DNA of 34,925 nucleotides. It comes from a virus. The notes under the pieces were generated by a model. It was given only the letters and a program-made list of their open reading frames with translations. It searched no databases and was not told where the DNA came from. How positions within the stretch are numbered: the first letter of the stretch is position 1; each line of letters opens with the position of its first letter. The translations under genes were made by a program, and so were the position numbers. The DNA lies in IMG/VR virus record IMGVR_UViG_3300042539_001222, positions 1 through 34,925 of that record, one strand, 5' to 3'. Shown one piece after another: positions 557 to 33,490 of this stretch.

Positions 557-751
557 ATGTCTGCAGAAGTTCAAGAAGTTGGAAAAAAGTTCTGGTTAAG
601 TAAGACTTTATGGGTCAATGTTGTAGCAGGGTTAGCCATAATAGTTCAAGCTAGTTATGGATTTGTAGTCAGTCCGGAATATCAAGCGTTAGCATTAAGT
701 TTAATCAATTTAGGGTTACGTAAGATCACCAATGAGCCGTTAGTCTGGTAA
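557..751 (+). CDS. Small holin-like membrane protein
   Basis: A 64-residue protein with an N-terminal polar segment, then KxFWLSKTLWVNVVAGLAIIVQ, which looks like one hydrophobic transmembrane stretch (about residues 17-40), and a second amphipathic/hydrophobic segment (SPEYQALALSLINLGLRKIT) ending in NEPLVW. This 'SKTxWVN...G.xxxPE.QA..L...N..LR..T.EP' pattern is familiar from short phage membrane proteins often labelled putative holins. The start at 557 is preferred over 524 because GGAGA lies 6 nt before it and the late promoter lies between the two. The 3' end overlaps the convergent HNH gene by 12 nt. Function as a holin is inference from size and topology. Confidence 0.65.
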   Translation: MSAEVQEVGKKFWLSKTLWVNVVAGLAIIVQASYGFVVSPEYQALALSLINLGLRKITNEPLVW

Positions 752-1021
752 TTTTTTTGGTCCCAAACGTGCCAGTATATTAAGTGCACGTTGTCTAAGT
801 TTATCAGTAAATTCATCTTCGCTCAGAGTACCTTTAGCGAGGTTACATTTACGACAAGCTACTTGTAGATTATCTCTAGTAGTCAGTCCGCCCTTAGATT
901 CTGGAATAATATGATCTAAGTGTATTTCTTTATCTTGTAAATCTTCGTCACAGTAGACGCATCTTAGTCCGTCGCGTTCTATAACTGATCTACGTAGATT
1001 AAGTGGTATATACTGTTTCAT
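740..1021 (-). CDS. Free-standing HNH endonuclease
   Basis: A 93-residue protein with a clear HNH fold. A CxxC pair (C21VYC24) is followed by HLDHIIPESKGG (metal-binding HxxH-type motif), then DNLQVACRKCNLAKG with the second CxxC and the final N. Such small nucleases cut DNA near their own locus and behave as selfish or homing elements in T-even-like phages; some are co-opted for packaging. It is transcribed against its neighbours and shares a 76-bp divergent spacer with the gene at 1098. There is no intron signature around it, so it is best described as a free-standing (mobile) nuclease. Confidence 0.88.
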   Translation of the reverse strand: MKQYIPLNLRRSVIERDGLRCVYCDEDLQDKEIHLDHIIPESKGGLTTRDNLQVACRKCNLAKGTLSEDEFTDKLRQRALNILARLGPKKLPD

Positions 1022-1603: not shown

Positions 1604-1611
1604 AATAAATA
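1604..1611 (+). promoter_or_regulatory. Late-promoter-like element, nearly leaderless start
   Basis: AATAAATA ends 7 nt before the ATG at 1619. With T4 late-promoter geometry the mRNA would begin about 2 nt before the start codon, and no Shine-Dalgarno sequence is present. Confidence 0.55.
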
Positions 1612-1618
1612 GTTCATC

Positions 1619-2986
1619 ATGAGAGCAAGAGAATTTTTATCAGAAAGTATAGAGCGTTTAAAGGGTCATTTAAAGGATCTCATAGATCGCACCAGTGATG
1701 AAACCTTATTAAACAAGATCTATACATCTTTAAACCGTGGGTCGTTAGTGCCGCGGATATCTTCGGGATTAGAGTCGTTATCTGATCCTGAGATTCGTGG
1801 GTTTGTCAATGAAATAGCTGACATCATAGTTCAAGCGCCCGGGTCGTATGAGGAAAAGATTGATTTTGTCAGTGGGTTACAAAAAGGGTTCATTGATGTA
1901 GGCATAATGACTGACAAGGGCAGACATCATTTTTCTGATTTATTAAGACCTACTGACAAGGTCAGTAAGCGATTTTTATTCAATATGTTCAATGCCTTAA
2001 AGGATCTTGGTAAGGGATCTCAAAAGGGTCCCGGTGAATTTGCCATAGCCATAATGAGTCCAGAGGTTAGTATATTCGGATCAGGTGATCTAAAAATCAA
2101 AGATAAAACTGTAGAAGTAAAAGCTGGTTATGGAACTGTAGGGGCCACAGGTCTTTTTCAATATTTAGATGTACCTAATATTTTAAAGAAATATTTGCCG
2201 GATTTAGATGTTACACAAAACATAGGTGCTGGTACTTTAGCTAAAGCGTTGCAAGATGAAGTCAGTAAGCCTAATACATCGTTAACACCGGACAATTTAC
2301 AAAATTTTGCCAATGAATTAGTAGAGTATATTTTCAAAGGTCAAATAGCCTGGGCCAATGTACAGCCTCTCAAAGATGCCATAATGAATGTAAACATGCC
2401 TCCAAATTTATTAGATGATGCCATTCGTAAAGGTTATCTAATAGCTGCATATAGTGCATATAGAGGAGAGATGGGTTCAGAAGGGTCGAGAAATAAATTT
2501 GACGGATTAATGTTAATAGATTATGAGAGACAGGATCTAAGATATTTTGATGATCCTGAAGAGTTGTATAAGGATATTGACAAGCCTCAAATATTATTCT
2601 CTGCAAAGAATTCTCAATGGGCTGCACGTTTAATAAGTCCAAGTGTTAAGTTAAAAGGCAGAGAATTAGTTAAACCAGAGCGTCCAGCAGAGATTACTCC
2701 TGATTCTCTCAATCAATACTCAAAAGACCTTGCATCGCATTTTGTAAGTATAGCGCAAAGAAGTGATCCTCAAAATCTTGATCTAAGAGAACCTCAGTTA
2801 GTAACAGATCTATCAAGTACCTTAATGGATTTACTCAATCAGGGATATAAAGAAGCTAAATTAAGAGCAGAAATACTTAAGAGATTCCCTATGTTGAATC
2901 CCAGAGCAAAACCTAATACCACAAACGTAGCTCAGCCGGCACCACAACAATCATTCGAACCACAACCTACTATTCCTAGCGTTTAA
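1619..2986 (+). CDS. Putative capsid-targeted protein with PD-(D/E)XK-like nuclease motif
   Basis: A 455-residue protein not recognised as a whole. Its first ten residues, MRAREFLSES, resemble the T4 capsid-targeting sequence of internal proteins (MKTYQEFIAE followed by cleavage), and LSE/S fits the (L/I)xE cleavage rule of the T4 prohead protease gp21. Further in, GEFAIAI (E140), SGDLKI (D157) and TVEVKAG (E166, K168) form the spacing expected of a PD-(D/E)XK nuclease core. The C-terminus is a Pro/Gln-rich tail. The late-promoter-like element just upstream agrees with virion-time expression. My reading is an internal head protein that is processed and ejected with DNA; this is inference. Alternatives are a head-associated nuclease of other purpose, or a structural protein with a fortuitous motif. 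Confidence 0.6.
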   Translation: MRAREFLSESIERLKGHLKDLIDRTSDETLLNKIYTSLNRGSLVPRISSGLESLSDPEIRGFVNEIADIIVQAPGSYEEKIDFVSGLQKGFIDVGIMTDKGRHHFSDLLRPTDKVSKRFLFNMFNALKDLGKGSQKGPGEFAIAIMSPEVSIFGSGDLKIKDKTVEVKAGYGTVGATGLFQYLDVPNILKKYLPDLDVTQNIGAGTLAKALQDEVSKPNTSLTPDNLQNFANELVEYIFKGQIAWANVQPLKDAIMNVNMPPNLLDDAIRKGYLIAAYSAYRGEMGSEGSRNKFDGLMLIDYERQDLRYFDDPEELYKDIDKPQILFSAKNSQWAARLISPSVKLKGRELVKPERPAEITPDSLNQYSKDLASHFVSIAQRSDPQNLDLREPQLVTDLSSTLMDLLNQGYKEAKLRAEILKRFPMLNPRAKPNTTNVAQPAPQQSFEPQPTIPSV

Positions 2987-3847: not shown

Positions 3848-4504
3848 ATGGTAATGGCAGTAGTCACAATGAATGATGGGGGATATGATTATCTAACTCC
3901 CTTGACCTGGGACCAAAATGGTTTATTGTATTGTGAGCAATGGGGATATCCTTATGTTGTTATAGATGATTTTGGTGGATTACCACCTGGATTTGCCAAA
4001 GTAGATAATATGTTAGCAATATGTAAAGAGAATCCAGAAGTTGAGTGGATCTTATGGAAAGATGCTGACGGTTTAATAACAAATTTTAGCACCAAAATTG
4101 AAGACATAGTTGATAACAATTATCATGTTATGATAACAACATGGTGGAATGGTATAAACAATGGAATGATGTTAGTGCGGAATTCAGAGCAAGGTCGTGC
4201 GTATCTTGAAATGATTATGGGTAAGTTACCGGAATATAGAGATCATCCATGTGTAGAGCAACAAGTTATGATAGACACATTTGAAGAGTGGAAACATATT
4301 ATCAAGGTCTGTCCTCAACGTTTATTCAATGCAGCCTGTTTTAGTGATGGTGCACACAGAGGTGCATATACAAGTACATTAGATACTTTAGGCACTGATG
4401 GTCAATGGCAACCCGGTGATTGGATCATGCATTGGCCTGGGCAAGATCCTTACATGCGTATACAGTTAGCTAAAAAATATCTCAGACAGGTTATACCTGC
4501 TTAA
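3848..4504 (+). CDS. GT-A glycosyltransferase of the GT34 (galactosyl/mannosyltransferase) type
   Basis: A 218-residue protein with the landmarks of GT34-like enzymes. WILWKDADGLITN (DAD at 72-74) is the metal- and nucleotide-sugar-binding DxD motif. It is followed by NNGMMLVRNS (acceptor-side loop), EQQVMIDTF, and a C-terminal IMHWPGQDP (His-containing metal site). The ribosome-binding site TAAGGA precedes the ATG, and the gene most likely shares the late mRNA of the gene before it. It would transfer a hexose from a nucleotide-sugar in the cytoplasm. The target (host surface glycan, virion protein or DNA) cannot be read from sequence. The 3' end overlaps the convergent methyltransferase by 14 nt. 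Confidence 0.75.
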   Translation: MVMAVVTMNDGGYDYLTPLTWDQNGLLYCEQWGYPYVVIDDFGGLPPGFAKVDNMLAICKENPEVEWILWKDADGLITNFSTKIEDIVDNNYHVMITTWWNGINNGMMLVRNSEQGRAYLEMIMGKLPEYRDHPCVEQQVMIDTFEEWKHIIKVCPQRLFNAACFSDGAHRGAYTSTLDTLGTDGQWQPGDWIMHWPGQDPYMRIQLAKKYLRQVIPA

Positions 4505-5216
4505 TTGCATAAAAGACTAGTTTGCCCGGAACTGGTTCTTTTATTTCGATTGTGTCAAACTTCATTTGATCTAATATATTAACAAATTCATCTTTAGTGA
4601 AGAACCAAAGATGTTCTATTGATTTCCAATGATGTTGCCCCTCAGGAATCCAAAAATGGGGTAAGTCGATAATAATTTTTCCCTTTGGTTTAAGTATTTC
4701 TCTTGCTTTAGATAGTGATATACTTACGTCAACCATATGTTCGATACTATCGTGCATAGTAATCCAATCATAATGACTAGGTTTAATATCAGTATTCTCT
4801 AATGTACCTGTAATAGTACATGAAAGGTCTCCGATGTCAGTGCCTGGTTCTAAACCCCAACAGTCATAACCTCTTTGTTTTGCAGCATGTACAAATGCAG
4901 AGTTACTGCTACCTACATCTAGACCTTTACTGTAGGATGGTAAGAATCCTTTATATGCGTCAAGTCTAATGTTAGCTATATTTAAATCGTGAATATATCT
5001 ATCTGCGTACGATATAACACCTTTACGCTCTTGGAAAATTTTATGGTAATCGTAGGTATAAAAATTAATAAGATCTTGGTCTTTCCAATTTTCTAATATT
5101 TGATGTACAACACCGCAATCGGTACATTTTAATACAGGTATGTTATTAATAGTAAGTTCAGTGAAATCATGTGTATTTCCGCAGATACATGATTTTATAA
5201 GATTTTTTTCAGTCAT
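4491..5216 (-). CDS. SAM-dependent methyltransferase with N-terminal zinc-binding motif
   Basis: A 241-residue class I methyltransferase. Two CxC/CxxC pairs (C10, C12; C31, C34) form a small zinc-ribbon at the N-terminus. Motif I is GLDVGSSNSAFVHAA (98-112), followed by an acidic loop WGLEPG, then DWITMHDSIEHMVD with the 'xHDSIEHxxD' motif typical of type 11/12 and sugar C- or O-methyltransferases. Next is LKPKGKIIIDLPHFW. Proteins with this zinc-ribbon plus methyltransferase plan often methylate sugars or sugar-nucleotides, which would fit the adjacent glycosyltransferases, but the substrate is not determined. It is monocistronic, with its own late-promoter-like element. Confidence 0.8.
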   Translation of the reverse strand: MTEKNLIKSCICGNTHDFTELTINNIPVLKCTDCGVVHQILENWKDQDLINFYTYDYHKIFQERKGVISYADRYIHDLNIANIRLDAYKGFLPSYSKGLDVGSSNSAFVHAAKQRGYDCWGLEPGTDIGDLSCTITGTLENTDIKPSHYDWITMHDSIEHMVDVSISLSKAREILKPKGKIIIDLPHFWIPEGQHHWKSIEHLWFFTKDEFVNILDQMKFDTIEIKEPVPGKLVFYAIKQV

Positions 5217-5312: not shown

Positions 5313-5873
5313 ATGACAGAACAAAATTATCGCGGTAACTTATTAGCATCACATCCAAAATATCCAGATCCCGATTTAAGGAAAAGTGTTATATTAGTTT
5401 TAGATCATGATGAAAATGGAGCAATAGGATTACAAATAAACAAGCCATATCAAAATGGTGTAAGTTTCTCTACTGTAATGCAAAATGCAGGATTATATTA
5501 TGATAGTGATCAACCGTTATTCATAGGTGGTCAAGAATCATCTAACAGAGTGTATGTTATACACAGCTTAGATTGGTACAGTCCGACTACTAGCAAAATC
5601 AGTGACACATTAGGAGTCAGTACAGATTTATCTATATTAATGGCGATCAGTCAAGGTGAAGGGCCGGAATATTTCCAAGCAGTTGCCGGATATACCAAAT
5701 GGGAATCTAATGAGTTGGAAGGTGAGATTTCTGGACTTGAACCTTGGTCATCGTTACATAGTTGGAATTATATTCCTGCTAGTTTAGAAGTAATCTTTGA
5801 TATAGAGCCCAAAGATCAATGGGCAACAGTTATTAACATTTCAAGCAGATTACAAATTTCTACTTGGTTTTAA
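5313..5873 (+). CDS. AlgH/YqgE (DUF179, UPF0301) family protein
   Basis: A 186-residue protein matching the family across its length. It has GNLLASHP.yPDPDLRKSVILVLDHDENGAIGLQINKP near the N-terminus, then PLFIGGQESSNRVYVIHS, and a C-terminal VAGYTKWESNELEGEI..LEPWSS equivalent to 'GYAGWxxGQLExEI..xxWL'. AlgH/YqgE proteins are widespread in Proteobacteria. They have been tied to regulation of exopolysaccharide and possibly transcription, but no biochemical activity is settled. A phage copy is unusual. The late-promoter-like element and the neighbouring sugar-transfer genes suggest a late, host-envelope-related role, which is inference. The 3' end overlaps gp41 by 4 nt, convergently. Confidence 0.88.
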   Translation: MTEQNYRGNLLASHPKYPDPDLRKSVILVLDHDENGAIGLQINKPYQNGVSFSTVMQNAGLYYDSDQPLFIGGQESSNRVYVIHSLDWYSPTTSKISDTLGVSTDLSILMAISQGEGPEYFQAVAGYTKWESNELEGEISGLEPWSSLHSWNYIPASLEVIFDIEPKDQWATVINISSRLQISTWF

Positions 5874-9181: not shown

Positions 9182-9559
9182 ATGAGAGATAAGTTTCAAA
9201 CAAATTATCCATTTTTAAGCTGTTTAAAATCCAATGAAAAGGAATATATAGGCATCGTTATTAATTTCGATGATTATATCGCCAGCATATATGATATATC
9301 GATGATTGTCGAGGAATCTGAGAGGAAGTTATTTTTAGAGTTAGGGGATGCATGGTGGTGGGAAAGCAATCGTAAAATACCGATTAATATTTTTTTAAAA
9401 AAAGAAATGATAGTTTTCAGACCGTTTATTAAAACTTTCAACAGCAAAGATGTTGAATTATTGTTTGGTCCTACAGTGAATCTCAGCGAAATAGCAGAGA
9501 AAAGAGTTAAACGTAAATCAATTCAGTTAGTTAGATCAGTTAAGAATATCCGTAACTGA
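9182..9559 (+). CDS. Conserved T4-like phage protein of unknown function
   Basis: A 125-residue protein with YPFLSCLKSNEKEYIGIVINFDD, an ELGDAWWWESNRKIPINIFLK core, and VKRKSIQLVRSVKN near the C-terminus. These blocks recur in T4-like cyanophage hypothetical proteins. The W-rich central motif and basic C-terminus are its only landmarks. I use ATG 9182; a TTG at 9173 is in frame. Transcription would come from the perfect TATAAATA at 9136, so it belongs with the late genes. The 3' end overlaps the convergent DnaE-like gene by 20 nt. Confidence 0.65.
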   Translation: MRDKFQTNYPFLSCLKSNEKEYIGIVINFDDYIASIYDISMIVEESERKLFLELGDAWWWESNRKIPINIFLKKEMIVFRPFIKTFNSKDVELLFGPTVNLSEIAEKRVKRKSIQLVRSVKNIRN

Positions 9560-10115
9560 TCTTTTCACATATTAAATTCATATGTACTATAACTAATGCC
9601 GCATAACTATGGGCATGGCTTTTCTTAAAAAAGTATTCATTACCGTCCGGTTTTTTCCATACTTCTTCAAATACCTTATCCCAACTTAACCCAAGTAAGT
9701 GTCTTTTTGCTGGTCTAATTATTGCCAATACTGCGGCTAATTGTTCGACATTTTTCGGTTTCATAGTTCGTAGTATATGACCATGCCCGTTAAGATGGAA
9801 CAATAGATCAGTAAATTCATCTTGTTCTAAAAGATCCCATAATGGTTCTGTATTCATAAGATAAATTAGATGTTCTTCATCTTTTACATCTTTATATACA
9901 TTTACATTTAGAAAATCAATTTTAAAATATCCTCTTTTTTCAGCTTCTTTGTAATCTATACTTGAAGTATTAGTTAGTGGATTAACTGGAATAGCGTGAC
10001 AATATACTCCGGTATTGTGTTTTTTAGATTGATTGTTTTCTATAATCGAAGCGGGAATATGCTGAATTTTATTCAGAATAATTGATCTATCAGCAAAATC
10101 TATATCAATGTCCAT
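9540..10115 (-). CDS. Miniature DnaE-like protein (DNA polymerase III alpha palm/thumb fragment)
   Basis: A 191-residue protein that starts exactly at the catalytic motif of bacterial replicative polymerases. MDIDIDF corresponds to PDFDVDF of DnaE (two catalytic Asp), HNTGVY to the HAGGV region, and YFKIDFLNVNV (D67) to KFDFLGLxTL with the third catalytic Asp. MKPKNVEQLAAVLAIIRPAKR matches LxPxxFEDxxALxALxRPGP, and FFKKSHAHSYAALV matches FNKSHSxAYALV. The PHP domain, the bulk of the fingers and the C-terminal domains are absent. Homologues occur in marine T4-like phages. T4-like phages carry their own family-B polymerase, so this is more likely an accessory or inactive relic than the replicase. 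It overlaps the kinase gene by 1 nt (TAATG). Confidence 0.75.
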   Translation of the reverse strand: MDIDIDFADRSIILNKIQHIPASIIENNQSKKHNTGVYCHAIPVNPLTNTSSIDYKEAEKRGYFKIDFLNVNVYKDVKDEEHLIYLMNTEPLWDLLEQDEFTDLLFHLNGHGHILRTMKPKNVEQLAAVLAIIRPAKRHLLGLSWDKVFEEVWKKPDGNEYFFKKSHAHSYAALVIVHMNLICEKISYGYS

Positions 10116-10894
10116 TAGATAATAATACTATCTATATCATCTGAAGTCAAACTATAGACTCCCCGGTGTTCTACGGATATACTTGCACATTGATTAGCAA
10201 ATCTAATAGCCTGTTCGATATCTTTTGATCTTAAAAATTCAAAAGTAAGTGCTGCTAAAAATGTATCACCGGCGCCGCAAACATCTATAACTTCTGCTGT
10301 TCTAGTTGGATAGATATTATCTTTATATTGAGCACCTTTACTACCTAGCGTTACTATTAGATCAGTACATTCGGAGATACGTTGTTTAAATTCTGTTTCG
10401 TTTATCTTAACAAAACATCCTTCAAATTTAGCAAGGTCTTGTTTTTTACTATCTATAAAAATTGGACCTTTAAATTGATGTCTTACTTCTTGGATATTAT
10501 CGTAAGTAATAAATCCTTTATTATAATCACTTATTACAACAGCATCGTATTGATTGTATGCCAATGATCTTAAGTAAGGATTAAATGGAGCACTTAGTTT
10601 ATCTTCGTCTACTCGAACTATATGTTGTTTACTTCTATCATCGATATATCTACGTTTAATGCTTTTCTTGCCGCCAGTCATAAAATCAACATCGCAATTA
10701 AAAGCTTCTAGATTTGATTTTACGTTTGCTGCCATTCCAAAACTTTGACTCCAACGAGTTATTTTAAGAACAGGAACTGGAGCTTCTGGGTTTAGTCTGT
10801 CACAAGTACCATAATAATATTCATCGATGCAGCTATCACCTATTAATAATACTTTGTATTTTGTTTGTTGTTGAGTATTTTCCGAGTCGATCAT
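10115..10894 (-). CDS. hldE (kinase part): D-glycero-beta-D-manno-heptose-7-phosphate kinase (HldE domain I)
   Basis: A 259-residue PfkB/ribokinase-fold kinase. VLLIGDSCIDEYYYG and RLNPEAPVPVL match the start of HldE (VxVVGDxxLDxYxYG, RISPEAPVPV). FGMAANV replaces GGAANV, ISDYNKG matches LSDYAKG, and DVCGAGDTF (GAGD at 207-210) carries the catalytic base and anion hole. It would phosphorylate heptose-7-phosphate at C1. It is about 50 residues shorter than the bacterial domain, mostly lacking the segment after the GGAANV helix. I chose ATG 10894; GTG 10924 is also in frame. Either way the start overlaps the nucleotidyltransferase gene by 59-89 nt in another frame. Other sugar kinases are possible, but the flanking HldE-C and HldD make this reading strong. 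Confidence 0.85.
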   Translation of the reverse strand: MIDSENTQQQTKYKVLLIGDSCIDEYYYGTCDRLNPEAPVPVLKITRWSQSFGMAANVKSNLEAFNCDVDFMTGGKKSIKRRYIDDRSKQHIVRVDEDKLSAPFNPYLRSLAYNQYDAVVISDYNKGFITYDNIQEVRHQFKGPIFIDSKKQDLAKFEGCFVKINETEFKQRISECTDLIVTLGSKGAQYKDNIYPTRTAEVIDVCGAGDTFLAALTFEFLRSKDIEQAIRFANQCASISVEHRGVYSLTSDDIDSIII

Positions 10895-11237
10895 AAAATT
10901 TAATTTCTTTGCAATATTCGGCACCTATGATAGGTTTTCCTTCATAGTCACTACCTTTAATCATTAAATCTGGTTCGTAGTTTTTAATATAATCAATTAA
11001 TTCTTGATCAGTATCAAATATATCAACTTTGTCAACGGCCCTTAATGCAGCTAGCAAACTAGAACGTTCGTATTCGTTATTAACTGGTCTATCTGACCCT
11101 TTTAATTTTTTAATTCTATTATCGCTGTCAATTAAAACATATACAAAAGAATTTGGAAAAGATTTAGCATATTCTAAAAGTCTTAGATGTCCTACATGTA
11201 CAATATCAAATGTTCCATTGACAACAATTTTTATCAT
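10836..11237 (-). CDS. hldE (nucleotidyltransferase part): Heptose-1-phosphate adenylyltransferase (HldE domain II)
   Basis: A 133-residue nucleotidyltransferase with GTFDIVHVGH (HVGH at 14-17, the HxGH active site), LKGSDRPVN, LMIKGSDYEG (94-100) and the C-terminal YSTTNKIQSI. KG(G/S)DY and STTxI are characteristic of the C-terminal domain of HldE, which transfers AMP to heptose-1-phosphate to make ADP-D-glycero-beta-D-manno-heptose. In most bacteria this is fused behind the kinase; here it is a separate gene placed before the kinase. It overlaps HldD by 4 nt (ATGA) upstream and the kinase by about 59 nt downstream. Confidence 0.9.
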   Translation of the reverse strand: MIKIVVNGTFDIVHVGHLRLLEYAKSFPNSFVYVLIDSDNRIKKLKGSDRPVNNEYERSSLLAALRAVDKVDIFDTDQELIDYIKNYEPDLMIKGSDYEGKPIIGAEYCKEIKFYDRLGKYSTTNKIQSIINR

Positions 11238-12025
11238 AAATCAAAATGTTTACGTAATTTATCAATATTTGCTTTAGTATATGTTTGATATTGAGTTTTC
11301 ATGCTTTCTGGCATCGGAATATATTCAATAGTAGCGTTATATTTTTGAGAAATTTCTTCTCCAACTTCTTGAAAAGATTTTGCTTTTCCTGTGCCAACGT
11401 TCCATATATTAGATTCATTAATATTAAAGAATTTCTTATGTACATCAACAACTGTTTGTACTGGTACAAAATCTCGATAATATTGATCAGAATTTTGGAA
11501 TAGTTTTATTGTTCCTGTATTCTTTGCCTGTTGTTCAAATTTATGATAAGGACTTGCTTGGTCACCTTTATGGTCTTCATGGGGACCGTAGACATTAAAA
11601 TATCTAAAGCCTTGAACAATAATTTCGTTAAATTCACGTAATTTTTTTTGACGATTAACATATCGATCAAACAAATATTTTGACCATGCATATGGACTAC
11701 GTGGATCAACTGGGCCTTCTTCATCGAATGTTTTTAACTGTCCGTAGACACTAGCAGAACTGCTATATTGCAAGTTGACTTTCCAGGTTAAGCATTCATT
11801 TAATATCCAAACGCTGAAGTCATAATTTTGCTTCATTATCTTTTCTATATCAGTTTCTGTTGTAGAACTAATTGCACCGAGGTGTATAACCCAGTCTAAG
11901 TTTTGTATTTTTTGTATTTTTGGTAAAGGTTCTCCCCATTCGAAGAAGGTCAGTGAATGGTCAGATAAGGCAGGAATTAAATTTTTTCCAATAAATCCTT
12001 TATATCCTGTAACTAAAATTTTCAT
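11234..12025 (-). CDS. hldD: ADP-L-glycero-D-manno-heptose 6-epimerase (HldD)
   Basis: A 263-residue extended short-chain dehydrogenase. The Rossmann motif GYKGFIG (7-13) is followed by VIHLGAISSTTETD, the YSSSASVYG strand and SPYAWSKYLFD with the catalytic Tyr112/Lys116. GFRYFNVYGPHEDHKGDQAS, RDFVPVQTVVDV and NVGTGKAKSFQEV follow, all diagnostic of HldD. It interconverts the C6 epimers of ADP-heptose, giving the L,D form used in LPS inner core. It is shorter than the E. coli enzyme (about 310) through trimmed loops. It overlaps the genes on both sides by 4 nt, so it is translationally coupled to both. Confidence 0.92.
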   Translation of the reverse strand: MKILVTGYKGFIGKNLIPALSDHSLTFFEWGEPLPKIQKIQNLDWVIHLGAISSTTETDIEKIMKQNYDFSVWILNECLTWKVNLQYSSSASVYGQLKTFDEEGPVDPRSPYAWSKYLFDRYVNRQKKLREFNEIIVQGFRYFNVYGPHEDHKGDQASPYHKFEQQAKNTGTIKLFQNSDQYYRDFVPVQTVVDVHKKFFNINESNIWNVGTGKAKSFQEVGEEISQKYNATIEYIPMPESMKTQYQTYTKANIDKLRKHFDL

Positions 12026-12378
12026 TTTTGACTATCACCTTTTGCTACACGATAATTATCTTCAACACTATCAGGTGTACTAACTTCAATTAAAGTACCT
12101 TCTTCGATACAAATAACCTGATGGGGAAGTAATGGTGGATTGTACCATGTCATACCTTCAGTGAGTGTATGTTCATGCACATCAGCATTTTTAGTATCAA
12201 TAACCTTTACAATAAATTTACCACTTAGTACGTACCATGTTTCATCTTTTTCTGAATGAAAATGCATACTAAATTTTGCATCTTTATTAAATTTTAATAG
12301 TTTACCGCAATATTTGTCAGTGGTTGCAAATATAAATTCATGCCCCCAACCTTTTTCTACAAATCCTTCTAATCTCAT
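12022..12378 (-). CDS. Cupin-domain protein (sugar-phosphate isomerase/mutase-like)
   Basis: A 118-residue single cupin. KGWGHEFIF and YCGKLL are followed by the metal site SMHFHSEKDETWYVLSGKF (HxH...E, motif 1) and GMTWYNPPLLPHQVICIEEG (motif 2 with His), ending LIEVSTPDSVEDNYR. It resembles the C-terminal cupin of mannose-6-phosphate isomerase-type enzymes and small cupins found in nucleotide-sugar clusters. It is first in the four-gene sugar cassette and overlaps hldD by 4 nt. A role in making or isomerising the heptose precursor is possible but unproven. The window contains no GmhA or GmhB. Confidence 0.75.
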   Translation of the reverse strand: MRLEGFVEKGWGHEFIFATTDKYCGKLLKFNKDAKFSMHFHSEKDETWYVLSGKFIVKVIDTKNADVHEHTLTEGMTWYNPPLLPHQVICIEEGTLIEVSTPDSVEDNYRVAKGDSQK

Positions 12379-20224: not shown

Positions 20225-22378
20225 TTATTTTGTCAAACCTGATAGTTTTAAAATTTCTGCCATTTCATTTTTAGGTTCTGGTTTTGGTTCAAACTGTGGA
20301 GGGATTCTACCACCACTATCTTTTTCAAGTTTCTTCAATAATGTAGCATCATCTGGTGCTACTTTATCTAAAACTTTTTTACCGAAAGATTTAACCTTAT
20401 CCATCATGCCTTCGTCTGTTTCTGGTTTTAATTTTCCTGTTCTTTCTAAATCTCTCAACATATCAATGCGATCTCGATATCCCTTAACACCAGGTTGAAT
20501 GTCGTGTGCTGCCATACGTTGTTGAACAGTTGGGTTATCAGCATGTTTCATTGTAGTTTTGTATGCATGTGATTTCGGATCAAACGTATCATTATGTTCT
20601 TCAGTTGTTGATGTCATTCCTTCAACTTTTGCCTTAACGTTACCTAACAATTCTTTTAATCTAGCTAATCCGTCATTGTCAACAGGTGCTAATTCTTCTT
20701 TATTTTTATGATGTTTCATTTCCCATTGTTTGGTCAATTTTTCCATAAACTGTTTAGCAATTGCCTCAGCTTTCATTCCTGCACGATCCCCATATTTTTC
20801 GCTTATTGTTTTTTTAACTTCTAAGCAAATTGCTTCTTCGCTGCGGAAAGGACCGACATCTTCATTTGAAGCATTATAAAAACGTTTTACAGTTTCTGCA
20901 ATGTCCTTCATTATAGATCCGGATCCCTCGGCTACTGGTTGTTCAGCAGGAGGGGCCTCTGGTGCTGGTTGTTCAGCAGGAGGTGTTTCGGGAGCAGGTT
21001 CTTCGGAATTACTTAATCCAAGTGCTACTAATAATTCTGGATAACTTTCGTTTGCCCATGCTTTAAATACTTCTATCGGATCTGTAGTATTGTCGATATC
21101 AGCCATGCTTTTTAATTTATCTTCTAAATCAGCATCTTCTATACCTAACCCATTAAAAAATTGCCATGCTGTTTGACCTTCTGGTCCTAGTTCTAGTTGT
21201 TGCCCTGATGAAGTTAATTCGGCCAGTGCATTTTTTAATTCTTGTATTTGATCGTCTGTTAATTTTCCTTGTTCAACGGCTTCTGCCCATTCTTCAAATT
21301 GATTAAATTCTGACTCAAATTGATCTTGATTTTCTACTGTAGTATTTTGATTATTATCTTCTACATATTCTTCTAAATTAATTTTTTCCTGCATAATACT
21401 GTGTATTAAGGGAAATAGTTTGCCTAATTCTTCATTAAAATTGCTTTGTGTAAATTTTGATTTATAATCTTCAAAAGTAATTGGATCTAGTTCTGTAATA
21501 GTTTCATCGCCATGTTCCATTTCATTAAACTCTGTTACCCATGATTCGTAATGATGACGTTTTCCTAAAGCTTCTACTCTACCTTTTAGTTCTTGTAGTC
21601 GGCCTATGGCCCTTTCTTTAATTCCCATTGCATCGTCGTGTAGAGAAGAATGTTGTACTTGTCTTTGAAATTCTTGTAATTGAGCAATTTGTTCGCTCAT
21701 TTTAATAATTGCCTTACCGGCAGGGTCATGTGGAATACCGCCGTGATCAACGTGTTGGGCCATAGCAAATGCACCAGCAGGATGAATAAACGGATATTTG
21801 AATCTCTCACCGTCTCTATTTTGAATAAAAATTGCTTTTATATTTTTACGTCTGCTTCGACTTCCTGGAAAAGTTTCGTCTACTGCGCTATGGTGTCTAA
21901 CAATAACTTCGGTAGTACCTTTAACTGCTCTGCTGGTCTTTTTAGTACTTTTATGATTCCAACGTGATTCATTCATATTCATATTATTTTCTTCCTTTGG
22001 CCCTTGAGTTGCTGCTAGATGTTGAAAGTCATTTTTATCTAAATTACTTTTTGCTACATCTCTAGTATCAAATCGAAGCAATCTTCGCATTGCAAACATA
22101 CGCATTTCTTTTAAAAATCTGTACCAAATTTGTTTAGCAGGATCGTCTTGATTTTCTGTAATTCCTTGACTGTAGTAGATTTTTAAAGATCCTAGGTCAT
22201 TAAGACTTATACTCACTCTTCCTAAATTTACACCTTCGGACACAAAATCAAAATCAAAAAATCTTGCATTTGTAGGATCAATAGTCACTGCTCCAGTTTC
22301 GTCGCCCATTTCTAAATTAGTAAAACGGCTACGTACCTTATCAAAAAGATCTTGAGAAATTATTTGTATTGCTTGCAT
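20225..22378 (-). CDS. Large virion-associated protein of T4-like marine phages, unknown function
   Basis: A 717-residue protein. The N-terminal ~120 residues are folded (IISQDLFDKVRSRF, VNLGRVSISLNDLGSLKIYYS). A basic segment (RWNHKSTKKTSRAVKG, GSRSRRKNIKAIFIQNRDGERF) and FIHPAGAFAMAQHVDHGG follow. Then comes an acidic Asn/Glu-rich region, a Pro/Ala/Glu repeat linker (EQPAPEAPPAEQP), a helical block (EEAICLEVKKTISEKYGDRAG) and the end MAEILKLSGLTK. That last motif is shared with the 305-aa protein at 24039. It lies downstream of gp17 and has its own late-promoter-like element and a terminator after it. Head/core association is likely; no enzymatic motif is seen. Confidence 0.6.
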   Translation of the reverse strand: MQAIQIISQDLFDKVRSRFTNLEMGDETGAVTIDPTNARFFDFDFVSEGVNLGRVSISLNDLGSLKIYYSQGITENQDDPAKQIWYRFLKEMRMFAMRRLLRFDTRDVAKSNLDKNDFQHLAATQGPKEENNMNMNESRWNHKSTKKTSRAVKGTTEVIVRHHSAVDETFPGSRSRRKNIKAIFIQNRDGERFKYPFIHPAGAFAMAQHVDHGGIPHDPAGKAIIKMSEQIAQLQEFQRQVQHSSLHDDAMGIKERAIGRLQELKGRVEALGKRHHYESWVTEFNEMEHGDETITELDPITFEDYKSKFTQSNFNEELGKLFPLIHSIMQEKINLEEYVEDNNQNTTVENQDQFESEFNQFEEWAEAVEQGKLTDDQIQELKNALAELTSSGQQLELGPEGQTAWQFFNGLGIEDADLEDKLKSMADIDNTTDPIEVFKAWANESYPELLVALGLSNSEEPAPETPPAEQPAPEAPPAEQPVAEGSGSIMKDIAETVKRFYNASNEDVGPFRSEEAICLEVKKTISEKYGDRAGMKAEAIAKQFMEKLTKQWEMKHHKNKEELAPVDNDGLARLKELLGNVKAKVEGMTSTTEEHNDTFDPKSHAYKTTMKHADNPTVQQRMAAHDIQPGVKGYRDRIDMLRDLERTGKLKPETDEGMMDKVKSFGKKVLDKVAPDDATLLKKLEKDSGGRIPPQFEPKPEPKNEMAEILKLSGLTK
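20937..20996. repeat. 30-bp tandem repeat encoding a Pro/Ala/Glu linker
   Basis: Two 30-bp units begin with identical 17-bp GGTTGTTCAGCAGGAGG (20937 and 20967). They encode a repeated PAPE(A/T)PPAEQ linker in the 717-aa protein. Such repeats expand or contract by slippage. Confidence 0.8.
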
Positions 22379-22385
22379 AATGTAT

Positions 22386-22393
22386 TATTTATT
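22386..22393 (-). promoter_or_regulatory. Late-promoter-like element (AATAAATA) for the 717-aa gene
   Basis: On the minus strand AATAAATA is followed by 7 nt and ATG 22378, with no Shine-Dalgarno sequence. It overlaps the stop codon of gp17. Confidence 0.5.
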
Positions 22394-23978
22394 AATAATT
22401 GCTAATGTATATAGGCATGGGCATTAAGAATTCGTCTTCGCGTTCTTCTCGCATTTTATCATATATTGCAGGATCCCAATCTTGCAACATCATGATCATT
22501 CTTAATGCCAATAATAAACTACTAACTAGGTCGTCAGTTGACCCGACTTTACCTTCAAAACTTATACCTTTAGCAACGAAAGTTTTAAGTTCAGATATCA
22601 GAGGTTTAGAAAATATCTTCAACCTGTTGCTTTCGATTAGATGTTTTAACTTTGCACAGATAGCAATTTTGCTAGTGTGTGTTGTATTAAATCCTTTTCT
22701 AAATCTTCTCACATGTCCTTTTTTAATCGGCTCGCTCAGGAATAATCCAGGTATGCTTTCTTCACCAATTTCTGTAATTGAAACTAATGCTGCTTCACCT
22801 ACTGTATTATTTTCAACAGAATAATATATGCTAGCTTGTGCTCCTTTTGATGCACATTCGTCATTAATATGACTACATATATCTCGTAGTATTCTAACCT
22901 GTGCTTGAATAGTTGTTAAATTGTGCTGCCATTCTGCAACCTGAATAAATGAAGGAATCTCTATTACCTGTATTGCGGCAGGATCTCCTCCTGTTCCTAA
23001 GCTAGGATCAAGTGCAACAATATATGTACATGATGGGTTAATTTTCTTATACCATCTTGCTTGGCCCATTTTCATAAATGGTTCTTTACCTTCAAGGTCA
23101 GCTAATTTAATGCTACTAATTAATGTTTCGTCAAATACTAAGAATTCGCAATCGTGTTCACGTCTAAATCTTTCTTCGCCAATTCTACTACGTTCAATTT
23201 CTGCCCATTTTTCATCTCTATCAGGATGTTCGTTCCAATATGCTCTAAATGGAAAAAATCCATTACGTCCTGTTGTAGTAGTATTTCCATGTTCGTCAAA
23301 TCTTTTATTTGCTTCTTTCCATATACTTGCAAATTGATCTTCGTCTGAATTAGGAGTACTAGTAATAATTGCTTTACCACCTGTTGCAAGTGTAGGCGAA
23401 ATACTAGTCCAGAATTCGCTAGCAATATTCGGTGCAACGAATGCAAACTCGTCGGCATATAGTAATGACAAGCTCATACCCCGGCCAGTTGTTTCAGTAG
23501 TAGTTTGAGCAATAATACGACTACCGTTTTCAAATTCAATACTTTGTTTGTTATAACTTGTACAACCGGCTCTAATATTATCAGGACACATTTCGTATGC
23601 ATAACGTATACGAACCATAATTTCTTGTGCACCTGTGTATTTGTGTGCTGCTATTAATATAGTGCTATCTGGTACAAACATAGCATACCAAAGTAAGTAA
23701 CCAGCAGCAGTTGTTGTTTTACCTGTCTGACGAGGTAATAAGTTAACATTAAATCTATGTTGGTGATAGCTGTCGATTAATCTACGTTGGTAATCAAATG
23801 GTTCGTATTTTAGTTTACCTCTAACAGGATGTTGTATATAGAAAAAGTTTTCAAGGAAGTAATGTGGACCTGTTTCTGGATCCATACATTTAGCAAGATT
23901 TTCTAGATCTTCTTCTGTAAATCTTTGTGTACTGTGTGCACGTTTGACCAAAGCTCCGTCTAAGTTTTTGCTTCCCAT
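22392..23978 (-). CDS. 17: Terminase large subunit, T4 gp17-like
   Basis: A 528-residue packaging motor. The ATPase domain has FDYQRRLID, Walker A LLPRQTGKTT (RQTGKTT at 83-89), Walker B LLYADEF (172-178) and ITSTPN (coupling motif). The nuclease domain starts YIVALDPSLGTGGDP, with catalytic Asp 324, and ends with GSTDDLVSSLLLALR. It translocates DNA into the prohead and cuts the concatemer. The gene sits in its own transcription unit, between a terminator (23997-24020) and the 717-aa gene, and is separated from gp16 by two genes, unlike T4 where 16 and 17 are adjacent. Confidence 0.96.
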   Translation of the reverse strand: MGSKNLDGALVKRAHSTQRFTEEDLENLAKCMDPETGPHYFLENFFYIQHPVRGKLKYEPFDYQRRLIDSYHQHRFNVNLLPRQTGKTTTAAGYLLWYAMFVPDSTILIAAHKYTGAQEIMVRIRYAYEMCPDNIRAGCTSYNKQSIEFENGSRIIAQTTTETTGRGMSLSLLYADEFAFVAPNIASEFWTSISPTLATGGKAIITSTPNSDEDQFASIWKEANKRFDEHGNTTTTGRNGFFPFRAYWNEHPDRDEKWAEIERSRIGEERFRREHDCEFLVFDETLISSIKLADLEGKEPFMKMGQARWYKKINPSCTYIVALDPSLGTGGDPAAIQVIEIPSFIQVAEWQHNLTTIQAQVRILRDICSHINDECASKGAQASIYYSVENNTVGEAALVSITEIGEESIPGLFLSEPIKKGHVRRFRKGFNTTHTSKIAICAKLKHLIESNRLKIFSKPLISELKTFVAKGISFEGKVGSTDDLVSSLLLALRMIMMLQDWDPAIYDKMREEREDEFLMPMPIYISNY

Positions 23979-24038: not shown

Positions 24039-24956
24039 TTATTTTTTAAGTCCTGCTAATTTCAACATAGATTCCATTGTATCTTCTTCACTTACACTTT
24101 CGCTAGGTAATTTACCTTCTGCTGCATCTTGATCTTTTTTTACAGCAGCGTCAGCAGCATCTTTACCCCAACGTTTGTCCATTCTAGCCTTCATACGATC
24201 ACTTTGATCACCTGCTAGACCTGTTCTGTTTTTCCAAGGATTATCACCGACAGCCATTTTGTTATAGGCTTTTGCTGCTAGTTTTTGAGAAATTTCTGCT
24301 ACTTCTTGATCTTCACCTAAAAACTTACGATATTCTGCCATTAGACTTTCGTAAGTTGCAGCCATTGGATTATCACCACGTTGTGCTGCTGGATACTGTT
24401 TCTTTTCTTTATGTAGATCATTACCGCTAGGAACAGCAGCATCATAACCCGCAACTTGCTCATCGGGAGTATTATCATATTCGTCTACTTTTTCTTCTTC
24501 ATCGTCATCTGACGAAGAATCATCTGCATCTGCACTAGGAGTATCATCAGAACTTGCGTCTCCTGCATCGTCATCTGATGGATTTAATTTATCAATCATT
24601 GAACGCATTACTGAAGTATCATCTGCCCCTACATCTGGACCAGCATCGACACTAGGTTCAACATCAACAACGGCAATTCCATCGGCGCCGGCCATTGGTT
24701 CTTCACCTCCCATTGGCATTTCAGGTGCTGGGTTCGATTGTCCAGCTAATGTCATTATGTCTTTTAACATAGAACTTAGCTCTTCACCTGTAGCTGCTGT
24801 CATGTTGATACTTGCTGGACTATGAGGATGACTCATACCCATACCGCCCATCATTCCGCATTCATCTAGACTTTCGTCTACACGTTTTTCTTGAACAATA
24901 TTAGGATTTTGTGCATCTAGTTCTGCAAGACGCTTTAATACATCGATCATTTGCAT
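24039..24956 (-). CDS. Acidic prohead-core-like protein, unknown function
   Basis: A 305-residue protein. The N-terminal MIDVLKRLAELDAQNP helix is followed by a Met/Gly-rich patch and a highly acidic Asp/Ser region (DDDAGDASSDDTPSADADDSSSDDDEEEK). Then come EYDNTPDEQVAGYDA, SGNDLHKEKKQYPAAQRGDNPMA and a C-terminal MESMLKLAGLKK. The 'xxNxPDE...GNDLxxxKxxxxxxxxGDNPM' block recurs in virion-associated proteins of T4-like cyanophages. Acidity and short terminal motifs fit a scaffold/core protein that is cleaved and expelled or packaged; this is inference. The ribosome-binding site AAGGA precedes the ATG, 1 bp after the gene upstream. Confidence 0.55.
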   Translation of the reverse strand: MQMIDVLKRLAELDAQNPNIVQEKRVDESLDECGMMGGMGMSHPHSPASINMTAATGEELSSMLKDIMTLAGQSNPAPEMPMGGEEPMAGADGIAVVDVEPSVDAGPDVGADDTSVMRSMIDKLNPSDDDAGDASSDDTPSADADDSSSDDDEEEKVDEYDNTPDEQVAGYDAAVPSGNDLHKEKKQYPAAQRGDNPMAATYESLMAEYRKFLGEDQEVAEISQKLAAKAYNKMAVGDNPWKNRTGLAGDQSDRMKARMDKRWGKDAADAAVKKDQDAAEGKLPSESVSEEDTMESMLKLAGLKK

Positions 24957-24957
24957 A

Positions 24958-25539
24958 TTATTTTCCTTTGCCGCTAATTGGGCTTAGTCGTTTATCTTCA
25001 GAGTCGGTGTTAAATTTTGCAGCACCTTCTGTAGGAATTTGTTCATTGCGTTCTTTACGCTGAAGTTTTAGGATATCATTTAATTCTTTAACAAACCCAC
25101 TATTGTATTTGTCCCCATAAAAATCTTCAAATTTAGCATTTGGAGATTCTTTATAAGTAGGATCGTCTAATAGTGCACCTTCACGTTTTGCAGGTTCGAC
25201 ATGTTGGTATTCTTCAGTAGGTTCGCCTGGTCGACGAACTGCTAAATGTGATTTACTAACACCGCAGTTATTTGCAATAAATTCAGTAAGCTCATGCTGT
25301 GTAGTCGGATAGTCTAAAGTAACTTCATAGATACTAACTTCACAGTTTTTTACTTGTGGGAAATCAAGTGGTAATTCTTGTATAGGAGTTTTTCCTGCTT
25401 TTTTCCAACCACTTACTGCATATTTGTCTAGTGCTGATTTTAAGTTTGTTTCTTGCTCAGTGGTAAAATCTCCGGCAATTTTAATGCGGAAATCATAACG
25501 TTTTTGAGACTCAGATAGATATTCTTTAAATGATTTCAT
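24958..25539 (-). CDS. Putative capsid-targeted internal protein
   Basis: A 193-residue protein starting MKSFKEYLSESQKRYDF. The first ten residues align with the T4 internal-protein capsid-targeting sequence MKTYQEFIAE, and LSE/S fits the gp21 prohead-protease cleavage rule. The next ~100 residues form an alternating alpha/beta domain (FRIKIAGDFTTEQETNLKSAL, VSIYEVTLDYPTTQHELTEFIANNCG). The C-terminal third is polar and disordered-looking. It lies between gp16 and the acidic core-like protein and has its own late-promoter-like element. Packaging in the head is inferred from the N-terminus; the mature function is unknown. Confidence 0.6.
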   Translation of the reverse strand: MKSFKEYLSESQKRYDFRIKIAGDFTTEQETNLKSALDKYAVSGWKKAGKTPIQELPLDFPQVKNCEVSIYEVTLDYPTTQHELTEFIANNCGVSKSHLAVRRPGEPTEEYQHVEPAKREGALLDDPTYKESPNAKFEDFYGDKYNSGFVKELNDILKLQRKERNEQIPTEGAAKFNTDSEDKRLSPISGKGK

Positions 25540-26041: not shown

Positions 26042-26485
26042 TTATTTTTGTTTGCTACCGTTCTGAAAAATATCATTTTCATTTATTACTCGAAATTGTA
26101 TGCCATTTTGTTTACACCAATTACCTGCTGCTGCCCACTTTGCCATATTTTTTACATATTGTGCTTGATTATATGGGTTCTTACCTACTTTTTCTTTCAG
26201 CATTTGATTTGCTGGTTTAATTTCAATTAGTTCTGCATGTTTTTTCATATTTCTATCAAGATATATGATTAAAAAATCAGGAACATAAACTGTTTGTTTA
26301 CCTGTTAATGGATCTCTGTATGGAATCTTTACGCTTTCGCTTGCCCATTGTTGTATACTAGGATTGTTATCGCAAAACATCATAAATGTTAATTCCCAAC
26401 TACTGCGATATTTTGGTACTCCTAGCCCTATATATTTTTCAGGGTGTTTAATTTTATAGGCACCTTGGCTAAACTTTAAACTCAT
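26042..26485 (-). CDS. 4: Head completion protein, T4 gp4-like (PD-(D/E)XK fold)
   Basis: A 147-residue protein with the gp4 (gp50) signature: FSQGAYKIKHPEKYIG, PKYRSSWELTFMMFCDNNPSIQQWASE, YVPDFLI and ELIEIKPANQ, ending KWAAAGNWCKQNGIQFRVINE. E31, D70, E88 and K90 form a PD-(D/E)XK nuclease-type core. In T4 it acts after packaging to finish the head portal/DNA end before tail joining. The start overlaps the gene upstream by 4 nt (ATGA). Confidence 0.92.
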   Translation of the reverse strand: MSLKFSQGAYKIKHPEKYIGLGVPKYRSSWELTFMMFCDNNPSIQQWASESVKIPYRDPLTGKQTVYVPDFLIIYLDRNMKKHAELIEIKPANQMLKEKVGKNPYNQAQYVKNMAKWAAAGNWCKQNGIQFRVINENDIFQNGSKQK

Positions 26486-26854: not shown

Positions 26855-27943
26855 TTAGATTCCGCCGCCTAATTTAGAAAGTAATGACACAGGAGCAGCT
26901 TCTGTTAATCCATTGTTACTAGAATTAAACCCGGCAAATGTATTAATACCTACACCGCCAGGTACATTAAATTTTCCAGCCTGTGATTCTATGTCAGAGA
27001 ACGAAGAATTAAAAAGACTGTTAGCCACACTGTATCCACTATTTGAACCCGGAAATCCTTTAAAATCTCCAGGAGTAGGTTTTAATGCACTACCAAAACC
27101 AGATGCAGGAATAGGAGATTTAAAATTACCACTTGTAGTTCCATATACATCATCTTTACCTGATGTGTTTCCATAACCTGCCGAATAAGGGCTCTTTGTA
27201 TTGTCGTAATATATTGCTGTAAAATTTTCTGGATTTGATCCTGGCTCAATTGTGCCTTGATTGTATAGTACAGTCTCGTATGCTAATCCCATTCTATTTT
27301 GTAAAATTTTATTATTTTCATTTTGATTTAAAGTATCATGTGCCCATTCAGTTACTTTAGGATTTACTAAAGTAATTTGTGTAAATTGTTGCATATGTAA
27401 AACATATAAATCAACTGTTGTAAAAAATGGATCTAAACTTTTTTTATAATGGTATCGCCCGTATTTTATATCATCGGCTAAAAATTTAGTGTCTTTAAAT
27501 TCATATGGTAGTTCATTTCTTTTTGGTCTACCTAGTGCAGAACCGCCATAATTGCTATCTCGATAAGAATGTCTAAAATACTGTATCCATAAATTATTAA
27601 TAATGTCAGAACTGTCATCATGAAATTCAATACTAACATTTTCATAAGTTAATTTTGTTTGTACTACTGTTTTTCTGTTATATTGATTAAGTGTCTCTGT
27701 ACTAATTTTAAATTTAGGTAAATCTACTTTTTTAACTAAAAATCCTACATCAGCAACTTGCTTATTTGCAAACTCAGCATCTTGAATAGCATCTAGATTA
27801 ATGTTAAAGTTTACAAAAAACAAAAATCCTAGTTTCGGTATCTTGGCATAATTATTATCAAGATATAAACGAGAGGCATGTTGATAATCTCTCAATATAG
27901 TTGAGCTGTTGCTAGATAACCAATTTGTAAATGCATTAGACAT
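26855..27943 (-). CDS. Tail-tube-like structural protein (gp19/gp54-type fold)
   Basis: A 362-residue protein. The first 200 residues have the tube-fold pattern: LGFLFFVNFNINLDA, VADVGFLVKKVDLPKFKISTETLNQYNRKTVVQTKLTYENVSIEF and IINNLWIQYFRHSYRD, similar in plan to gp54 (tube initiator) and gp19. The C-terminal 120 residues are Gly/Ser/Asn-rich (YSAGYGNTSGKDD, SGFGSALKPTPGDFKGFPGSNSG). It lies directly downstream of the tube gene and upstream of gp4. Baseplate tube initiator, tube terminator or second tube protein are all possible. Confidence 0.65.
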   Translation of the reverse strand: MSNAFTNWLSSNSSTILRDYQHASRLYLDNNYAKIPKLGFLFFVNFNINLDAIQDAEFANKQVADVGFLVKKVDLPKFKISTETLNQYNRKTVVQTKLTYENVSIEFHDDSSDIINNLWIQYFRHSYRDSNYGGSALGRPKRNELPYEFKDTKFLADDIKYGRYHYKKSLDPFFTTVDLYVLHMQQFTQITLVNPKVTEWAHDTLNQNENNKILQNRMGLAYETVLYNQGTIEPGSNPENFTAIYYDNTKSPYSAGYGNTSGKDDVYGTTSGNFKSPIPASGFGSALKPTPGDFKGFPGSNSGYSVANSLFNSSFSDIESQAGKFNVPGGVGINTFAGFNSSNNGLTEAAPVSLLSKLGGGI

Positions 27944-31712: not shown

Positions 31713-32051
31713 ATGATTCGAAATTTATGCAAAACATGTGGCCAAAGGCCTGTTGCTATTAATTACTACAAGAAGGGAAAAGCTTTTTTCAGATCAAATT
31801 GCGATCATTGCGCTAAAAATAGAAAAAAAGAAAGGCCTCTATGGGCCTTTACTGGATATAAGAAAAAAAGTAGTTGTGATAAATGTGGGTTTAACTCAAA
31901 ATATCAAGAACAATTTAATGTTTATTACGTTGACGGAAACCCTAGTAATTGCAGACCATCTAATTTAAAAACAGTTTGTGCAAACTGTCAAAGGATATTA
32001 CACAAATTTAAGCTGCCATGGAAACAGGGTGATTTGAAACCTGACTTTTAA
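31713..32051 (+). CDS. Zinc-binding HNH/endonuclease VII-like protein
   Basis: A 112-residue protein with four CxxC pairs: CKTCGQRP, CDHC, CDKCG and the C-terminal CANC. It has the core EQFNVYYVDGNPSNCRPSNLKTVCANCQRIL, in which the 'Hxh/VxxxDGNxxN...NLxxxCxxCH/Q' pattern is that of His-Me/HNH nucleases. Two usual His positions are Tyr/Val and Gln here, so activity is uncertain. Similar proteins are frequent next to tail genes of T4-like cyanophages. The 3' end overlaps gp1 by 44 nt convergently, and a terminator acting on the opposite strand is embedded in it. Confidence 0.7.
   Translation: MIRNLCKTCGQRPVAINYYKKGKAFFRSNCDHCAKNRKKERPLWAFTGYKKKSSCDKCGFNSKYQEQFNVYYVDGNPSNCRPSNLKTVCANCQRILHKFKLPWKQGDLKPDF
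31831..31850 (-). terminator. Intrinsic terminator for gp1, embedded in the opposing gene
   Basis: Minus strand: AAAGGCC, loop CATAGA, GGCCTTT, then CTTTTTTTC. The perfect 7-bp stem plus T-run sits about 160 bp past the gp1 stop, inside the coding region of the zinc-binding protein. Confidence 0.6.
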
Positions 32052-32731: not shown

Positions 32732-33490
32732 TTAGCCAATAACAAAGGTTAAAGGTGTTGATCCATCTTTGTAGTTAATTAGATCTTGCTCTAGGATTTC
32801 AATTTCTGCTTTTCCTTCTCCTTTGAGAGCAGTACCATTAAGTTGTGTACCACCTTGAGGGCTAGCAATTTGTCCAAATTTTTCACGAGCTTCGCCTAGC
32901 ATAAGTTTGCATGTTGCTAGACTGTAATCTTTGAGCCATTGATTTGCAAACGGATCTTGCATTAGATTAAAGTCCGGACGATAGTTATAAATCCATAATA
33001 GAACTTCTTCTTCTGAACGAGGACGTTGCATTAGAGTAAGTTTTTTAGTAGTCTTGTTAAAAGTAAAATTAATCTCGCTGCCAAACATTTTACCGACCTG
33101 CTTTTGATAACTTGCAAAGGCATAATAAGTAGCTAAGCCACCCATGTTTGTTGCAGTTAAAAGATATGTATTAGAATATGCAAGGTTAAACGGCTCAAAT
33201 AAAGTTCCGCCTTGCCCGCCACCTGACCTAGAACCTATACTACGTCTAAAAATTTGACGCACATTTGTTACTTCTGACGGTAAAATATAATCGTTTCTAT
33301 CAACTTCTATAGTTAAAAAGCTAAAACTTTCTTCTACTGCATTGCTACTACGTTGGCGAAATTTATTCAAAGCACGGTCAATCGCAGTATTGTAATGAGC
33401 AGGATCAAGCTCAACATCAATCATACCATCACCTAGCATAAGCTTGCAATAGTCGACAATTTTTTGGCGTTCGTTTTCGTTCTCAGTCAT
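32732..33490 (-). CDS. 13: Neck protein, T4 gp13-like
   Basis: A 252-residue protein. IVDYCKLMLGDGMIDVELDPAHYNTAIDRALNKFRQRSSNAVEESFSFL, DYILPSEVTNVRQIFRRSIGSRSGGGQGGTLFEPFNLAYSNTYLL, KLTLMQRPRSEEEVLLWIYNYRPDFN and KDYSLATCKLMLGEAREKFGQI match the gp13 neck protein of T4-like cyanophages. It closes the filled head and provides the platform for tail attachment with gp14, which is encoded divergently 29 bp away. It has its own late-promoter-like element 5 nt before the ATG and no Shine-Dalgarno sequence. Confidence 0.85.
   Translation of the reverse strand: MTENENERQKIVDYCKLMLGDGMIDVELDPAHYNTAIDRALNKFRQRSSNAVEESFSFLTIEVDRNDYILPSEVTNVRQIFRRSIGSRSGGGQGGTLFEPFNLAYSNTYLLTATNMGGLATYYAFASYQKQVGKMFGSEINFTFNKTTKKLTLMQRPRSEEEVLLWIYNYRPDFNLMQDPFANQWLKDYSLATCKLMLGEAREKFGQIASPQGGTQLNGTALKGEGKAEIEILEQDLINYKDGSTPLTFVIG

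Follow-up and report, generated by a model that had tools for sequence, protein, structure and literature searches.

The open reading frame (ORF) at positions 1619-2986(+) of an uncultured virus record encodes, as judged from sequence, a member of a new protein family that our searches detected in uncultured phages (IMG/VR) alone, and there is about an even chance that its product is a late nuclease that is packaged in the phage head and injected into the host. We infer the packaging, cleavage, nuclease activity, injection and target of this protein from sequence comparison and structure prediction. The window, that is, the whole stretch of DNA analyzed, is the 34.9-kb record. The ORF is present as given in a preliminary description of this DNA, and its N-terminus reads MRAREFLSES. 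The features are as follows.

1604-1611 (+): T4-type late promoter AATAAATA, TAAATA core 13 nt before the ATG, no Shine-Dalgarno sequence (match to the consensus in PMC2984593)
1619-2986 (+): tagged nuclease-like protein of a new family, 455 aa, ATG start (ORF and family alignment)
1619-1645 (+): capsid-targeting-like tag MRAREFLSE (tag comparison; T4 rule from PMC9026906)
1649-1909 (+): N-terminal helical domain, residues 11-97 (AlphaFold model)
1952-2653 (+): predicted PD-(D/E)XK-like catalytic core, residues 112-345 (AlphaFold models and core alignment)
2036-2038 (+): codon of E140, first residue of helix 140-146, within GPGEFA (invariant in 56/56; model)
2087-2089 (+): codon of D157, start of the second core strand, 157-160 (invariant in 56/56; model)
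2114-2122 (+): codons of E166-V-K168, third core strand, 163-169 (E and K invariant in 56/56; model)
2459-2461 (+): codon of Y281, tyrosine in the long helix before the next core strand (invariant in the 51-sequence core alignment)
2699-2884 (+): C-terminal helical extension, residues 361-422, missing in many relatives (model and alignment)
24958-25539 (-): second tag-like start, MKSFKEYLSES, on a PHROG head-and-packaging virion protein with the same late promoter (PHROG match)

Judging from the genes in the window, the source is an uncultured large (jumbo) T4-like phage. The terminase is nearest to those of jumbo T4-like phages (PA5oct, 56%; Phosso, 49%; GAP32/Rak2-type, ~42%). A T4-type replication and tail set with sheath- and tail-tube-like proteins was recognized from matches or from translations read by eye, as were gp4-type head closure and head-tail adaptor proteins, a DnaB-type helicase, and UvsX- and UvsW-like proteins; the gp4-type head nuclease lies at 26042-26485. 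Inserted between late genes are a gene for a small HNH endonuclease, matched in Pfam (740-1021(-)), and an ORF that by eye looks like HNH (31713-32051(+)). A sugar-nucleotide cassette at 9540-12378(-), whose genes were read by eye as kinase-like, nucleotidylyltransferase-like, epimerase-like and cupin-like, may serve to glycosylate the host surface or DNA.

The ORF is almost certainly expressed late. The T4/cyanophage late promoter consensus is TATAAATA/NATAAATA (PMC2984593), and the late promoter that had been proposed upstream of the ORF was found there and is conserved among relatives, with TAAATA located 11-13 nt before the ATG in 24 of 43 and at 28-35 nt in seven others. In the window, TAAATA precedes the ATG by 11-13 nt in 10 ORFs of ≥70 aa versus ~0.06 expected by chance. 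The genes preceded by TAAATA include those for terminase, tail tube and head-tail adaptor, and no late TAAATA was found in the window before uvsX, ssb, helicase or primase. The same spacing without a Shine-Dalgarno sequence was seen at 4491-5216(-), 5313 (an AlgH-like (DUF179) phage gene with a late promoter, 5313-5873), 20225-22378(-), 22392-23978(-), 24958-25539(-), 26855-27943(-), 32732-33490(-) and 33520. From this fixed distance and the missing Shine-Dalgarno sequence, almost leaderless late messages can be predicted for this lineage and for related phages.

The family and its gene neighborhoods

The window protein was unmatched in Pfam, PHROGs, NCBIfam, PADLOC, PDB and 50,697 phage records, and single-sequence searches gave zero matches in Pfam, PHROGs, PDB, phages, plasmids, and viral and genome contigs. 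No profile library calls it a nuclease, and the earlier statement that no role is described for the family holds in every library searched. The family became visible only after a tag scan of IMG/VR (ATG-RA[RS]-EF-x-x-E; at least 120 stretches), followed by alignment of the first relatives. Among the matches listed, two were true relatives of the window protein, sharing the tag and the motif at 21-27% identity. A tagged 562-aa protein (L119) was rejected as a relative because its alignment was confined to the tag. The family was gathered from a three-sequence profile and the GPGEFA pattern, using only first-round HMM hits because iteration on full-length giant proteins drifted onto unrelated parts. 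There are 56 distinct members, 16-48% identical to the window protein. At the sensitivity used, the family is absent from the 50,697 phage records and 84,980 species genomes; marine members used as queries against the phage collection and a family profile scan of genome contigs also gave no matches.

Two architectures were found: stand-alone proteins of ~350-500 aa with the N-terminal tag, and a domain near the C-terminus of giant phage proteins that reach about 2,400 aa. One giant protein of 2406 aa (L156:6118-13335) combines the nuclease-family domain (~1653-1913) with a Cu/Zn superoxide dismutase domain (2051-2182).

The gene neighborhood differs among relatives. In eleven of them (L122, L123 and nine further loci), a ferredoxin-dependent bilin reductase gene ends 12-16 nt before the start of the family gene. 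Hsp20, ClpS and heme oxygenase genes precede it in the same row, and in several of these loci CsgF and CsgG genes come next downstream; TAAATA seems to overlap the reductase stop codon in the loci inspected. In another group, the family gene follows RecA-like (UvsX) and UvsY-type genes. Such an inconstant context is as expected for cargo, while the uvsX/UvsY arrangement leaves room for a role in recombination, which these neighbors suggest for one subclade.

The main rival explanation, which we consider rather unlikely, starts from this arrangement. The protein would be a late DNA-processing nuclease (Holliday-junction resolvase, debranching or packaging nuclease) acting in the producing cell as a functional counterpart of T4 endonuclease VII, and the tag would only bring it to the prohead or packaging machinery. 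The late promoter fits this explanation, as do the several relatives whose gene lies after a RecA-like gene and, downstream of that, a gene that matches the window's uvsY-like gene. RuvC was not found in nine related contigs; endonuclease VII was not found in seven, where the positive control was unmatched as well. Novel REase-fold resolvases are known in jumbo phages (PMC7824862). However, a recombination enzyme needs no cleavable head tag, yet the uvsX-adjacent members retain MRHFEFISEE and MRYFEFLKED, and GNAT and peptidase proteins bear the same tag. Furthermore, the family is missing from four tag-bearing jumbo contigs (G004, G005, G006, G009), and the window already encodes the gp4-type head nuclease.

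The N-terminal tag

The first 10 residues of T4 IPIII are enough to direct packaging, the T4 protease gp21 cleaves after L/I-x-E, and the cargo is diverse (PMC9026906). In the window protein, L7-S8-E9 fits L/I-x-E, and a prohead-protease cut is predicted after E9, so that the mature protein would start from S10. The preliminary description of this N-terminus as T4-like and capsid-targeting survived an independent test. (L/I)xE with L/I at residue 6-9 was present in 39 of 40 stand-alone relatives versus 56 of 626 control ORFs (9%), which were neighbors on the same contigs with starts picked by a simple RBS rule. The tag drifts within the family (MRAFEFLIE, MRHFEFISE, MRLHHLFE, MLLKHLFE), and the (L/I)xE register is retained. 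The sampled loci contain 136 copies of MRA[RS]EF(L/I/V/M/F)xE, of which 135 lie within 60 codons of an upstream stop, and MRA[RS]EF(I/L)xE fronts at least 29 clusters of unrelated bodies, including GNAT, DUF6267 and LysM-M23. The tag codons vary freely at synonymous sites, indicating that selection acts on the peptide. A broad (L/I)xE profile over the ORFs of contigs G001 and G009 gave no clear peak, which places the signal in the specific tag and the nuclease-like family rather than in ORFs at large. These results suggest that the tag is probably a head-targeting sequence.

The commonest tagged family, accounting for 81 of 128 tagged bodies sampled, consists of ~125-aa proteins (ORFs of 125-130 aa; L054, L042, L053 and others) ending in SPVKAFKGYPR, often in tandem copies. 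One representative was unmatched in cultured phages, and the cultured phages that partly matched a tagged GNAT/kinase-like protein gave nothing useful. Two unrelated-looking late proteins in the window, 24039-24956(-) and 20225-22378(-), have a common C-terminal motif (ESMLKLAGLKK / AEILKLSGLTK), which may mirror the head-targeting tag at the opposite end of the protein.

Of the 13 contigs tested that bear the tag or the family, 8 encode a gp21-type (PF03420) prohead protease; the window itself is a fragment that lacks its head genes. Contig G001 harbors both the protease and a tagged member of the nuclease family, and the 203-kb contig G010 harbors the family with no recognized gp21-type protease. 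In the mass-spectrometry-based virion annotation of PA5oct, an N-terminal (L/I)xE was present in 10 of 89 virion proteins versus 16 of 152 others (p=0.51), a comparison uninformative on the tag because the strict tag is nearly absent from PA5oct. The PA5oct proteins nearest the tag (MKINDIITE, MKIKDILVE) were both detected in virions, as was the homologue of the 24958-25539(-) protein. Of the processed, injected internal head protein originally proposed, the T4-like tag, the late promoter and the nuclease-type residues each hold; the PA5oct data gave no association of an N-terminal (L/I)xE with virion proteins.

We regard it as improbable that the tag is instead an N-terminal sequence favored for translating late, nearly leaderless messages and no targeting signal. 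Many tagged family genes do start 11-13 nt past TAAATA without a Shine-Dalgarno sequence, and the PA5oct comparison gave no support for targeting, but most window genes with the same late start are untagged (terminase, MGSKNL; tail tube, MSNAFT; adaptor, MTENEN) and some tagged genes have ordinary Shine-Dalgarno leaders. The synonymous variation of the tag codons and the (L/I)xE register held in MRLHHLFE and MLLKHLFE while the rest drifts also argue against this explanation.

Conserved residues and predicted fold

E140, D157, E166 and K168 were confirmed at exactly the positions first described, and all four are invariant in the 56 divergent members, together with G137, G139, F141 and G156. 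The conservation of E140 was partly selected for, since the GPGEFA pattern gathered part of the family; that of D157, E166 and K168 was not. Members share the spacing E-(17 to 30)-D-(9 or 10)-E-x-K. The conserved charged residues (E)...D...(D/E)xK of PD-(D/E)XK nucleases are present. With good confidence, the window protein can be predicted to carry a nuclease-type active site.

AlphaFold modeling with 53 sequences gave a pLDDT of 89.8 and a pTM of 0.84 for the whole protein, and 91.7 and 0.89 for the core alone. The modeled order, helix (E140)-strand-strand (D157)-strand (ExK)-helices-strand, is that of PD-(D/E)XK with a helical insert. Foldseek searches of PDB with the full and core models returned no PD-(D/E)XK match, only helical or carbonic-anhydrase noise, and a structure search of BFVD matched only three unnamed uncultured-phage proteins. 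The invariant residues and the high-confidence order of strands and helices fit the PD-(D/E)XK reading of the preliminary description, but the fold-library comparison gave it no match; because Foldseek found nothing in PDB, we assign the fold from the residues and the order of the secondary-structure elements. On this basis, the protein probably has a PD-(D/E)XK fold.

The least probable reading is a packaged, non-cutting protein, such as a head core or DNA-condensing protein, in which the nuclease-like residues were retained to bind DNA or for structural reasons: the large helical domains on both sides of the core, the lack of an enzyme in the fold search, and the GGR motif, which follows ExK in most relatives and is missing in the window protein and its closest relatives, would agree with it, but none of the four acidic/lysine positions varies among 56 sequences, a pattern typical of metal-dependent active sites.

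Proposed delivery and comparison with known systems

Under the reading of a head-packaged, injected nuclease, the T4-like jumbo phage would make a head-cargo protein from ORF 1619-2986 late in infection, and residues 1-9 would be its capsid-targeting sequence, binding to the prohead core. A gp21-type protease would cut after E9 and free a PD-(D/E)XK-type endonuclease within the head, which would keep its helical N- and C-terminal domains. The endonuclease would then enter the next cell with the phage DNA and, in the first minutes, may cut the host chromosome, plasmids or competing phage DNA. As the nuclease would be packaged active, protection of the phage's own DNA would be needed, raising the question of how the phage achieves it; no partner shielding phage DNA from the packaged nuclease was identified.

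More generally, uncultured T4-like jumbo phages may run a protein-delivery system, a proposal that we put somewhat short of even: a portable MRA(R/S)EF(I/L)xE tag, with drifted forms, would load dozens of unrelated proteins for injection, one of them a widespread new family of PD-(D/E)XK nucleases entering the host with the genome. If the tag marks head cargo, the proteins delivered before transcription of the first gene could be listed from sequence across uncultured jumbo phages.

T4 injects a handful of tagged internal proteins; one of them, IPI*, is 76 residues long and inhibits a restriction enzyme. The window protein resembles T4 IPI/IPII/IPIII (capsid-targeting sequence MKTYQEFIAE) in its N-terminal tag ending in EF(I/L)xE, its late promoter, the combination of a conserved tag with a variable body, and the gp21-type protease in tag-bearing contigs. 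Unlike them, it has a tag one residue shorter and a 455-aa body with nuclease-type residues, and its packaging is a prediction. Nucleases have been packaged artificially in T4 heads (PMC9026906; PMC3012670), and a packaged nuclease would be the natural counterpart of these experiments.

With the PD-(D/E)XK (restriction-endonuclease-like) superfamily, the protein shares E...D-x8-E-x-K on helix-strand-strand-strand, followed by helix and strand. It differs from the named families in having no sequence or fold-library match, a long helical insert that separates ExK from the following strand, and helical N- and C-terminal domains. Like T4 gp4, a TnsA-like head-completion nuclease (PMC7824862), the window protein would be a virion-associated REase-fold nuclease of a T4-like phage. 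Kinship to gp4 (PHROG 218) was rejected, as there was no PHROG match and the hhalign probability was 0.05%; the window protein is unrelated by profile, and the window's own gp4-type protein is encoded separately at 26042-26485. Finally, the family recalls the polyvalent injected phage proteins (Iyer et al. 2017, named in PMC7824862), since its domain also occurs within giant phage proteins, one with a Cu/Zn superoxide dismutase domain, whose injection is putative. Unlike polyvalent proteins, the window protein stands alone as a single unit.
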